Made by a program: the position numbers and the translations under genes. 21,385 nucleotides of DNA. Origin: a virus. The notes under the pieces were generated by a model. It was not told the origin of the DNA and searched no databases. It saw only the letters and a list, made by a program, of their open reading frames with translations. Location: positions 1-21,385 of the IMG/VR virus record IMGVR_UViG_3300044639_001241. One strand, 5' to 3'. Below, piece by piece: positions 12,613 to 20,913 of the stretch. Position 1 is the stretch's first letter, and the number at the start of each line of letters is the position of its first letter.

Positions 12613-12828
12613 TTACAACTCTTGAACTGTGACGCGATATTGTTTGCCAAACATATCCAATACATCAATGGTTTTTGTGGTGGAACAAAATTCGCCAAAT
12701 TCGCCGAGGTCAAATTGCACCATGCCAACTTGGTCAATCAAACATTCGGTGTCTCTGTTTATTAATGTTTGATGTATTAGATTGGCTATGTAATCGCAAT
12801 AGGCCAGTTTTAATGTTTTGCTCATCAT
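12613..12828 (-). CDS. Small hypothetical protein in replication operon
   Basis: 71 residues if read from the first of two adjacent ATGs (12828). The second ATG (12825) has better spacing to the AAAGGAAA ribosome binding site (7 rather than 4 bases after GGA), giving 70 residues. The sequence (LKLAYCDYIANLIHQTLI, DQVGMVQFDLGEFGEF, GKQYRVTVQEL) looks like a small alpha/beta protein. It has no recognisable motif and no membrane segment. It overlaps the stop codon of the DUF1376 replication gene by a few bases, so the two are coupled. Confidence 0.65.
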   Translation of the reverse strand: MMSKTLKLAYCDYIANLIHQTLINRDTECLIDQVGMVQFDLGEFGEFCSTTKTIDVLDMFGKQYRVTVQEL

Positions 12829-13583
12829 GATTTCCTTTTTAAAGATGCCAGCATTTCACGCTCGGCTTGGGTTGGGGGTCGAGTTGTTTTTTCATCTGCT
12901 TTAATCTTTTCAAGCGCAGGGTCAGGCTCATTGTTCATCGGCACTGTGAGCCTTGCAACGTCATACAAATTTGGTTTCGCCGCTTTGCTGTTGCGTACCC
13001 AATTGCGCCATGTCGCCGCCCAATCAAGTTTTACGCCTTTTTGTCCCGCTTGTGCAATCCAATAATCTTTAAATTGTTCGGCAACTTGCCTGATGTTTAA
13101 ATCGGGTCGTTCCGTTTGTGCCCATTCACCCAATGATTTTGTCAAAACCCAATCTTGAGCGAGGCGTGTGCCGCGCTGTGACTTATTAATTGTTTTATGG
13201 TTTATGTTTGTTGTTTCTTGTTTAAGGTTATTTTGGGTTTGGTTTGGGTTAACGGTGGGTTTCGTTTGGGTTTTCTTTGGTCTGCCACCCTTGCTACCAT
13301 TGGCTTTTTGCTTTGCCATGTATTCGTGATAACTGCCAATTTCAAGGTCTGCACGATGATTTTTGTACCCATCGGCTGTTAATTCAAAAAATTCATTCAA
13401 TACGTTTTGAACAACATCCGTATCCAAACGTAACCGACGGGAAACCCATGGGATGTCGTTGGGTATTGGCTTTTCTGAATCGTAATAAAAATCAAGCAAA
13501 CGTCGATATGCTAAATCTTCCAATGGCAAAAGATGAATGGTGTTTTTGATGTAATCACCAACATTAAATTGATAGTAGTGCAT
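12825..13583 (-). CDS. DUF1376-domain phage replication initiator (lambda O / DnaT-like layout)
   Basis: 252 residues from ATG at 13583 (GGAGAG 6 bases upstream); a TTG at 13616 would extend it but has no support. Residues 1-95 (MHYYQFNVGDYIKNTIHLLP, EDLAYRRLLDFYYDSEKPIP, VSRRLRL) are a clear DUF1376 domain, a winged-helix-type DNA-binding module of phage replication proteins. Residues 100-140 are a Gln/Asn/Thr/Lys-rich linker. Residues 165-200 (EQFKDYWIAQAGQKGVKLDW, AATWRNWVRNS) match the C-terminal part of DnaT-like or O-like proteins that recruits the helicase. The linker DNA carries an 11-bp iteron array (13221-13286), so the protein may bind its own gene as origin. No helicase loader or helicase gene is visible in the window. 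Confidence 0.85.
   Translation of the reverse strand: MHYYQFNVGDYIKNTIHLLPLEDLAYRRLLDFYYDSEKPIPNDIPWVSRRLRLDTDVVQNVLNEFFELTADGYKNHRADLEIGSYHEYMAKQKANGSKGGRPKKTQTKPTVNPNQTQNNLKQETTNINHKTINKSQRGTRLAQDWVLTKSLGEWAQTERPDLNIRQVAEQFKDYWIAQAGQKGVKLDWAATWRNWVRNSKAAKPNLYDVARLTVPMNNEPDPALEKIKADEKTTRPPTQAEREMLASLKRKS
13221..13286. repeat. 11-bp iteron array with adjoining AT-rich tract: candidate replication origin
   Basis: On the plus strand the GGGTT cores start at 13235, 13246, 13257 and 13268, exactly 11 bp apart. Units read TTTGGGTTTGG, TTTGGGTTAAC, GGTGGGTTTCG and TTTGGGTTTTC, with degenerate units at 13221 and 13276. Because 11 is not a multiple of 3, the repeat falls in all three codon frames of the replication gene and cannot be a protein repeat. 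One flank, 13180-13231, is strongly AT-rich. In phage lambda the origin has four iterons and an AT-rich region inside the O gene, so an origin is inferred. Confidence 0.6.
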
Positions 13584-13615
13584 TGCACTCTCCGCAAATC
13601 TCCCAAAAAGAAACA

Positions 13616-13669
13616 ACGGCAGACGGGGAGTACGCTTTTCGACATGGGGATCAATCCATGCCTAGCCGT
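13616..13669. other. Structured segment between rusA and replication gene (gap 13584-13697)
   Basis: The 114-base gap holds no convincing gene. ACGGC (13616-13620) pairs with GCCGT (13665-13669), enclosing a hairpin CATGG/CCATG (13643-13647 with 13656-13660). On the minus strand a CTCCC within this segment can instead pair with a GGGAG nearer the replication gene's ribosome binding site. Two exclusive folds upstream of an initiator gene would suit translational or attenuation control. No U-run or known riboswitch core was recognised. Confidence 0.35.
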
Positions 13670-19279: not shown

Positions 19280-19828
19280 ATGACAAAATTAGCAATCAAA
19301 TACAAAAAAACAACCGAACTTACAGCATACGCAAAAAACTCACGCACGCACAGCGATGAGCAAATTGCGCAATTGGTGGCAAGCCTACGTGAATTTGGGT
19401 TTACAAATCCGATATTGATTGACGCAAAAAACAGCATTATTGCCGGTCATGGTCGGCTAAAAGCGGCTCAAGAACTTGGTTACGAAACCGTACCCACAAT
19501 TGAACTTGGCGAATTAACCGAACAACAACAACAAGCGTACATCATTGCTGACAACAAATTAGCATTAAACGCGGGTTGGGATAATGAATTGCTTTTATTT
19601 GAAATCCAACAATTGCAAAACGCTGGATTTGACGTTTCATTAATTGGCTTTAATGTTGATGAATTAAAAGCATTAAATTTTGACGATGCTGAAATTGACG
19701 AAGATTTTAAAGAGCCATCCGATGACAGCCGTAATACATTGTTAATTGAATGTACAGGCGAACGTGAATTGGAAACGCTTTATGAAGAAATGCAAAAGCG
19801 AGGTTTTGAGTGCAAAATTATGAGTTAA
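19280..19828 (+). CDS. ParB/Srx-like N-terminal domain protein
   Basis: 182 residues. The ParB N-terminal nuclease/CTPase-like domain covers about residues 8-95: 'ELTAYAKNSRTHSDEQI', 'SLREFGFTNPILI', 'IIAGHGRLKAAQELG' (the G-x-G-R motif) and 'IADNKLALNAGW'. In many phages this domain is joined to a DNA methylase; here the methylase is missing and only an acidic tail and a short alpha/beta ending (NTLLIECTGERELETLYEEM, GFECKIM) follow. The start lacks a strong Shine-Dalgarno site. Its end overlaps the next gene by 19 bases, so it probably works with the ABC-ATPase/GNAT fusion. A DNA-targeting role is likely; the reaction is unknown. Confidence 0.8.
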   Translation: MTKLAIKYKKTTELTAYAKNSRTHSDEQIAQLVASLREFGFTNPILIDAKNSIIAGHGRLKAAQELGYETVPTIELGELTEQQQQAYIIADNKLALNAGWDNELLLFEIQQLQNAGFDVSLIGFNVDELKALNFDDAEIDEDFKEPSDDSRNTLLIECTGERELETLYEEMQKRGFECKIMS

Positions 19829-20913
19829 CCCTTGCATCGCCTGTAGCCAAATCATTTCGCGCAATTAAAGCGGCAAACAGCCTTGACATTGATGCTGAGA
19901 AAAAATCAACGCATCATTTCCAAGTCAAAGCCGACATACAAAGCGCATACAGCATAGGTTTAATCGTAGGCGCGTCAGGAAGCGGTAAGACGACGTTGGC
20001 AAAGCATATATGGGGTAATGAGTGTTTTAATGAAATACTCGACCCACAACGCCCAATTATTGAGCAATTTCCCGAATCAATGTCATACGACCAATGCGCG
20101 GAAATGTTATGTGGCGTTGGCTTAACAAGCGTGCCATGTTGGATACGACCCGCATACACGTTATCTAATGGTCAAAAGGCACGTGCGGAATGCGCGTTAC
20201 AAATGGCGCGTGAAGATGGAATGATTGTCATTGACGAATGGACAAGCGTTGTTGACCGAACCGTTGCCAAAGTTATGAGCCATTGCATACAGAAACACGC
20301 ACGCAAAACGGCAAAACGCATTGTATTATTGTCATGTCATTACGACGTTGTTGAATGGTTAAACCCTGATTGGGTCATTGACGCTAACAAACAGACGTAC
20401 ACCGACCGGAGGTCACTTTGGCGAGACTATCAACGCACAGAACGGCTTGAATTTAACGTGTATGAGACCGATAGGCACACATGGCGTTACTTTAGCCGTT
20501 ATCATTATTTAAGCGAGAATTTAGCCGGTGGTAAGCAATTGTTTTATGGCTTATGGGATGGCTCAAATCAAATTGGCTTTTTAGCCTTTTCCAATTACGT
20601 GCCACATCGCGCTGGCACAATGATGCAATTACATTTCAATCGTCTTGTAATACACCCCGATTATTGTGGGTTTGGCTTAGGCATACATTTTTTAAACAAA
20701 TGCGCCAAATTGGTACATGAGAAAAATTATGAGGTCATGGGCAAATTTTCAAGCATACCCGTGTATAACGCGTTAAGGCGCGACCCCAAATGGCGATTGA
20801 ACGCTGTGATGCGTCAACATAAGATAAGCGTTGGTGGCAATATGCAACGTAAGGATGGTTTTAGAAAAGATGTTAAAGCGTGGTCATTTAAATATGCCAA
20901 CGATACCAATTAA
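19810..20913 (+). CDS. ABC-type ATPase fused to GNAT acyltransferase domain (predicted DNA-modification factor)
   Basis: 367 residues from a GTG start (19810), supported by GAGG (19800-19803) 6 bases upstream. The N-terminal ABC ATPase has Walker A GASGSGKTT (54-62), signature LSNGQKARAE (118-127), Walker B MIVIDEWTS (138-146) with catalytic Glu143, and His177 in LSCHYDV. There is no membrane domain, so it is not a transporter. Residues about 212-330 form a GNAT fold: 'WRYFSRYHYLSENL', 'QIGFLAFSNYV' and the acyl-CoA loop 'HPDYCGFGLGIHFL' (282-295). The HYL plus GNAT layout recalls phage Mu Mom, which modifies adenine in DNA; a similar role here is inference. It overlaps the ParB-like and HNH genes on either side. 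Confidence 0.85.
   Translation: MQNYELTLASPVAKSFRAIKAANSLDIDAEKKSTHHFQVKADIQSAYSIGLIVGASGSGKTTLAKHIWGNECFNEILDPQRPIIEQFPESMSYDQCAEMLCGVGLTSVPCWIRPAYTLSNGQKARAECALQMAREDGMIVIDEWTSVVDRTVAKVMSHCIQKHARKTAKRIVLLSCHYDVVEWLNPDWVIDANKQTYTDRRSLWRDYQRTERLEFNVYETDRHTWRYFSRYHYLSENLAGGKQLFYGLWDGSNQIGFLAFSNYVPHRAGTMMQLHFNRLVIHPDYCGFGLGIHFLNKCAKLVHEKNYEVMGKFSSIPVYNALRRDPKWRLNAVMRQHKISVGGNMQRKDGFRKDVKAWSFKYANDTN

Follow-up and report, generated by a model that had tools for sequence, protein, structure and literature searches.

An array of four GGGTT words in exact 11-bp steps lies in the middle of a DUF1376 gene of a virus record from IMG/VR, and it likely represents the initiator-binding iterons of a phage replication origin located inside its own initiator gene. 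The array itself, its phasing, its DNA-level conservation, its recurrence in relatives under other words, the match of these words to a protein tail motif, and a neighboring gene for a helicase, a primase or replication protein P in several phages were all observed directly. Since the same arrangement with different, tail-matched words is found in many related phages, the array marks the likely replication start site. The analyzed DNA, here called the window, comprises the 21,385 bases of the record, which is an incomplete fragment without end repeats.

The repeat array and its surroundings

The DUF1376 gene is encoded on the minus strand (12825–13616), and the array reads GGGTT on the plus strand and AACCC on the coding strand. 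Word positions in the window confirmed the four starts given in a first-pass annotation of this DNA (13235, 13246, 13257 and 13268), and TRF also reported a period of 11 over 13228–13280. In gene order the plus-strand cores are found at 13268–13272 (core 1), 13257–13261 (core 2), 13246–13250 (core 3) and 13235–13239 (core 4), corresponding to gene offsets 344, 355, 366 and 377 of AACCC. Each of the four is invariant in the 10 aligned rows that were found by protein similarity. The copies occupy codon frames 2, 1, 0 and 2, in agreement with the claim that the repeat runs through all three frames. Its assignment to linker residues of about 104–117 is right if translation starts from the ATG at 13583, the likely start; the longest ORF begins with a TTG 11 codons earlier. 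Two weaker flanking units had also been proposed, and one of them could be substantiated. The sequence AGGTT at 13225–13229 (plus strand), 10 bp from core 4, qualifies as a degenerate fifth unit, with a full GGGTT in relatives L014, L026, L055 and L073, where the core spacings are 11, 11, 11 and 10 bp. The other unit, GGTCT at 13279, has no such support.

A survey of all 5-mers with four equally spaced copies at periods of 6–25 returned this array as the only case among the 21,385 bases of the window; GGGTT and TGGGT overlap and were counted as one array. None of 60 first-order Markov copies of the window contained any 5-mer in four equally spaced copies. Four AACCC at 11 bp never arose in 20,000 permutations of the linker codons, and synonymous recoding with retention of the linker peptide produced them in 299 of 200,000 cases. 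Chance or base composition as the source of the array is excluded by the window-wide survey, the codon permutation and the Markov copies. Cumulative GC skew, suggested in the first-pass annotation as a check on the origin, was computed across the window and showed no clear turn at 13.2 kb; on this fragment the check is uninformative.

The AT-rich, G/T-skewed tract that had been noticed beside the array is clearly present, with 78.6% AT in 13179–13234 versus 49.1% in 13235–13289, and is a candidate unwinding element. It has a phase of its own. Between 13194 and 13229 a 7-bp unit, AACCAWW on the coding strand, is repeated, and the peptide TNNHKPI corresponds to three such units. Most DUF1376 linkers (L002–L081, L570–L589) have a 7-bp-phased AT-rich array, likewise a candidate unwinding element, on the 3′ side of the 11-bp one.

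The DUF1376 protein and neighboring genes

The protein passes the curated Pfam cut-off for DUF1376 (PF07120) with 73.3 bits versus 30.1 (E 2.2e-20), and the PHROGs families that it matches are annotated as primosomal or replication initiation protein. The order on the coding strand is N domain (13338–13580, the span of the PF07120 match), tail motif GGRP (13278–13289) closing this domain and followed by KK, the four AACCC cores, the weak fifth core, the AT-rich stretch with the 7-bp repeat and the C part (12825–13178). An AlphaFold2 model gave a confident helix-helix-helix-helix-hairpin-helix layout for the N domain, with pLDDT values of about 84–94 across most of its length. The linker is polar and predicted to be disordered (pLDDT 37–47), and the C-terminal domain, modeled as helices, is swapped for unrelated domains in array-bearing relatives. 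The N domain is predicted to be a winged helix: its best structural neighbors are uniformly winged helices, with a best VIA Z of 5.8, which is weak and below the tool's own trust level. A Foldseek search gave no match at E 0.001 or less, and a PDB sequence search (alignment A4) gave none at E 1 or less.

In the window the DUF1376 gene has genes for RusA, a Sak annealing protein, a YqaJ nuclease and SSB as neighbors. No helicase, loader or primase was recognized with Pfam or PHROGs among the scanned proteins of this incomplete window. Of 19 annotated phage records, 8 have a gene adjoining the DUF1376 gene that is annotated as helicase, primase/helicase or replication protein P (L570, L575, L578, L581, L582, L584, L585 and L589), and in E. 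coli K-12 ydaU is followed by ydaV. The same early region of the window encodes a ParB-N protein and then a protein with an ABC-type ATPase match (19280–20913). The product of 18772–19263 matches phrog_858, a family of starvation-inducible transcriptional regulators.

Conservation of the 11-bp phase

The first-pass annotation held that selection must act on the DNA, and that relatives which keep the linker residues and lose the spacing would refute the proposed origin. The comparison was made with 80 relatives found by protein similarity, not by DNA pattern, and with 20 phage records plus ydaU; one relative from genome contigs, L082, was left out. The inference of selection on DNA was upheld, the 11-bp spacing persisting with other words in linkers of quite different peptide sequence. 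All 16 relatives whose N domain is 80% or more identical to that of the window protein carry four AACCC at 11 bp, including three (L026, L055, L073) with an unrelated C part. Three or more AACCC at 11 bp occurred in 0 of the other 64, which include 12 with a C part 85–96% identical. Linkers of other lineages contain the word nnnnGTTCAAC (L020, L028, L078), AACGCAAT-like words (L022, L042, L049) or a CCCC-type word (L015, L017). By lineage the DUF1376 words are AACCC, GTTNAAC, GCAAT/AACGCA and CCCC, the first three being spaced at 11, 22, 33 or 44 bp, and peptides as different as GVERALNDGSTDVQ and DANALPTQSE are encoded with the 11-bp phase.

The phase was also detected without reference to any word. 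In 20 linkers less than 70% mutually identical, DNA self-similarity relative to codon permutation peaked at lag 11 (mean z 3.03), lag 7 (2.66) and lag 22 (2.42). In these genes the neighboring N and C segments had lag-11 means of 1.05 and 0.89 and lag-7 values of about 0, and 600 random ORF segments of the same loci gave 0.20 at lag 11; polar ORF segments, with 8 cases only, were too few to serve as a control. For 20 phage records together with ydaU of the Rac prophage of E. coli K-12 the lag-11 mean z of 2.38 was the highest among lags 4–33, and the lag-7 mean was 1.68 in 21 phage genes. The E. coli ydaU linker itself reached a lag-11 z of 4.1; it contains no exact AACCC or GTTNAAC array, its array being degenerate.

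At the level of single bases, 0 of 20 core positions were variable versus 11 of 30 spacer positions in the 10 protein-found rows around the window sequence (p 0.0016). Third codon positions at residues conserved in all 10 rows varied in 0 of 6 cases in the cores versus 24 of 39 in the N domain (p 0.007).

Two departures from the common words were seen among the DUF1376 linkers. In Pseudomonas phage MR15 (L588), where the gene is annotated as antirepressor, GTGCAC occurs at 11 and 22 bp in a linker whose tail could be assigned to no class, and forms a class with a single member. In the GGRP-type linkers of L574, L577 and L584 the core occurs both as AACCC and as GGGTT, for example AACCCAGTGGGTT in L577, a hint of dyad sites.

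Quantized spacing and pattern scans

Pair distances of up to 50 bp were collected between copies of the class words, and protein-found genes were picked for this by tail motif only. In 23 genes with AACCC, 52 of 84 pairs were at exact multiples of 11 (20 at 11, 21 at 22, 9 at 33 and 2 at 44 bp) and 81 of 84 were within 1 bp of a multiple, including 29 of the 32 pairs at other distances. The GTTNAAC class (7 genes) had 28 of 29 pairs at exact multiples, with 11, 9, 6 and 2 pairs at the four distances and one other. With GCAAT or AACGCA (8 genes) the fit was complete, all 16 pairs being exact (11, 3, 1 and 1).

From the GTTCAAC class as seen in three loci a prediction was made, for which IMG/VR was scanned for three GTTCAAC at 11 bp, with 12 bp as control. 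Among the matches listed, the array was inside a DUF1376 ORF at 79 of 120 viral loci for 11 bp and at 3 of 105 for 12 bp; the Fisher p of 8e-26 is only nominal because the loci are related. Four GGGTT at 11 bp were inside a DUF1376 ORF at 32 of 119 loci among the matches listed, and the controls gave 0 of 74 at 10 bp, 4 of 120 among the matches listed at 12 bp and 0 of 52 at 14 bp. Four GTGTG at 11 bp did so at 0 of 120 among the matches listed. The GGGTT sets at 11 and 12 bp, the GTGTG set and the GTTCAAC set at 11 bp are samples of the matches, and the viral contigs were not made non-redundant. Many of the 12-bp matches are in-frame Pro repeats.

Array-bearing ORFs without DUF1376 were often initiators according to their PHROGs annotation. 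The PHROGs scans (alignments A1, A2, A3, A5 and A6) left out ORFs under about 80 aa, A3 also overlong ones, and in A1 most same-strand ORFs were omitted and 33 of 48 with an ORF were used; the scans provide family counts, not a count of initiators. Initiators of other families are present in the GGGTT sets at 10, 12 and 14 bp. At 12 bp (L204–L323) replication initiation families phrog_3171, 8064 and 2447 occur, and the 10-bp set (L324–L397) includes DUF6291-type proteins with a GGRP tail. Many ORFs with four GTGTG at 11 bp (L398–L517) code for DnaD-like or O-like initiators whose peptide repeats every 11 residues (TxxxHxxHTxxT), and these arrays, mid-gene as well, may be another iteron class. 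GTGTG, chosen as a null for the GGGTT scan, is a fair one for the link to DUF1376 but, given these initiators, not for initiators generally. The occurrence of initiators in the 10-, 12- and 14-bp sets and in the GTGTG set indicates that equally spaced words often mark phage initiator genes, a period of 11 bp being characteristic of DUF1376 and certain others but not of all.

The tail motif and the repeat word

The word in the array goes together with the motif that closes the N domain. We assembled 175 DUF1376 genes, 93 of which have N domains under 85% identical. The tail–word pairs were GGRP with AACCC (class A), GKASA with GTTNAAC (class B) and ARW with GCAAT (class C). In the 93 genes, GG[RAK][PK] tails occurred with class A in 31 cases (class O in 5), GKASA-like tails with B in 37 (O in 2), ARW with C in 6 (O in 2) and AAKRW with O in 5, and 5 genes had no named tail. 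Word classes and tail patterns were set by eye on the same sequences, and in class A and B genes that were retrieved through a DNA pattern the word was fixed in advance, which leaves only the tail free. Both tail and word could be assigned in 31 of the 47 protein-found genes (A 19, B 6, C 6) and none were discordant; the remaining 16 have no class or no named tail. Among 24 protein-found rows with a GGRP-type tail, 5 lacked an assigned class, and one of these 5 (L018) is a pattern artefact with a GAAKRW tail.

Among up to 80 listed loci per set, a GG[RAK]P tail preceded the GGGTT array in 37 of 53 usable ORFs at 11 bp, DUF1376 ones included, in 18 of 33 at 10 bp and in 4 of 56 at 12 bp. A GKASA-like tail preceded GTTCAAC in 65 of 77 at 11 bp and 0 of 41 at 12 bp (again up to 80 listed loci per set). 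No DUF1376 ORF was found at any of the up to 80 listed loci of the 10-bp GGGTT scan. In a profile comparison DUF6291 and DUF1376 aligned over tail, linker and C part (Prob 98.1, columns 116–249) with the N domains left out; low-complexity linkers may inflate such scores. The AlphaFold2 model of the DUF6291 N domain has three helices and no hairpin. The GG[RAK]P tails outside DUF1376 and the alignment with DUF6291 indicate that the tail and the array act together as one unit, joined to varying N and C domains.

Strict coupling of the word to the whole N domain is not supported, since the word switches on the N-domain tree. Class A required 14 changes and class B 18, compared to shuffled means of 26.8 and 29.2 (0 of 500 as low), so the word is clustered on the tree, with switches. 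This quick tree of 87 columns is poorly resolved and has many open forks. The partner of the word in the N domain thus seems to be the short tail motif more than the domain as a whole. Reading of the word by the tail itself is inferred from the sequence comparison, and close linkage of neighboring segments would yield the same table. A transferable origin cassette with a recognition code is conceivable, and we put it forward tentatively, as something short of an even chance: end-of-domain residues (GGRP, GKASA, ARW, AAKRW) would read the words encoded just behind them (AACCC, GTTNAAC, GCAAT/AACGCA, CCCC), the cassette would be joined to different N domains (the DUF1376 winged helix, the predicted three-helix bundle of DUF6291) and C domains, and origin specificity would be changed by swapping about 150 bp.

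Proposed function and alternatives

In the origin model the four (five) 11-bp sites would be occupied from one face of the helix by the DUF1376 protein, with contacts made by its winged-helix N domain and short closing tail. The bound protomers may then pack into an oligomer, the adjacent AT-rich 7-bp-phased tract would be melted, and the exchangeable C-terminal domain could recruit the helicase. Binding, oligomer formation, melting and use as an origin are all inferred, and no binding, footprint or replication data are available; for binding, the tail–word match is the only support, and an indirect one.

A site for a repressor or host protein (an operator, a nucleoid protein), which would control transcription rather than start replication, is an unlikely alternative that keeps some force as phased wHTH sites serve operators too and origin activity of the array has not been shown. 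The array is, however, in mid-gene and away from a promoter, the AT-rich phased tract is always downstream, the word tracks the tail motif of the protein's own N domain, and similar arrays in other genes are mostly found within initiators. It is very unlikely that the array is mainly a recombination joint for exchanging the N and C halves of the gene, conserved by frequent exchange. The swapped C domains of array-bearing genes, the DUF1376/DUF6291 alignment that omits the N domain and the Sak annealing protein encoded in the window would all fit such a joint, but exchange by homology does not call for an exact 11-bp period across three frames, and changing words that match the tail would be left unexplained. 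The view that the phasing merely accompanies a low-complexity N/Q/T/P/K linker selected as protein, the DNA having no role, is barely tenable: the linker is polar and predicted to be disordered and synonymous recoding produces the array now and then, but codon permutation never did, unrelated peptides keep the phase in other lineages, the core occurs in the reverse orientation as well in some genes (L574, L577, L584), and a protein-level repeat is refuted by a spacing that stays constant while word and peptide change.

With the array taken as initiator-binding iterons, DUF1376, annotated as a domain of unknown function, obtains a testable job as an origin-binding initiator, the binding being inferred. 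The likely origins of many phages and prophages, including Rac of E. coli K-12, become readable from sequence alone. If the tail–word match is a code, it offers a handle on switching of origin specificity and avoidance of incompatibility in phages. Judged by titles and the beginnings of abstracts, the open-access papers found on DUF1376, DUF6291, ydaU, phage iterons within an initiator gene and 11-bp phage origin repeats do not describe such an origin; subscription literature was outside the scope. DUF1376 is mentioned once in PMC5795418, without a description of such an origin.

Comparison with known origins

The Rac prophage has a working origin, oriJ (PMC3945230, PMC11014345); the available passages of these papers do not place it relative to ydaU. 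Rac YdaU shares with the window protein the DUF1376 domain and a linker with an 11-bp signal and TGTTCAAACA-like words, and differs in that the array is degenerate.

The first-pass annotation had likened the array to the lambda origin with a different initiator family and one-turn spacing, and this comparison is supported. In a lambda-type origin, according to the available part of PMC7466680, iterons and an AT-rich tract are located midway in gene O, and the mid-gene iterons of the window with the AT-rich tract on their 3′ side fit that description. Both have four tandem sites in the middle of an initiator gene and an AT-rich tract directly adjoining, and some DUF1376 relatives also share the helicase-loading partner gene next door. 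The window gene differs in belonging to the DUF1376 family, with only primosomal and replication-initiation PHROGs and no O-like PHROG among its matches, in the 11-bp (one-turn) phasing of its sites and in the second, 7-bp phase of the AT-rich tract. The iterons of lambda are longer, about 18–19 bp.

A second parallel is found in RepA_N plasmids. As described in the accessible part of PMC5703833, the winged-helix N domain of pSK41 Rep binds four boxes inside central rep, the origin encodes a linker region of the protein, and in the pPR9 chimera the N domain and origin were exchanged together as a module. The window shares with pSK41 and pPR9 a winged-helix N domain, in our case predicted, four sites in the central part of the gene and a linker encoded by the site region. 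It differs in repeat words, spacing and C domain, and no RepA_N domain (PF06970) was present in the protein, DUF1376 alone being found at E 0.001. By analogy with these systems, our best reading is that the window array works like the lambda and RepA_N origins while belonging to neither family, as a putative DUF1376 initiator-embedded origin with one-turn iterons whose word follows the tail motif, its use as an origin being inferred.
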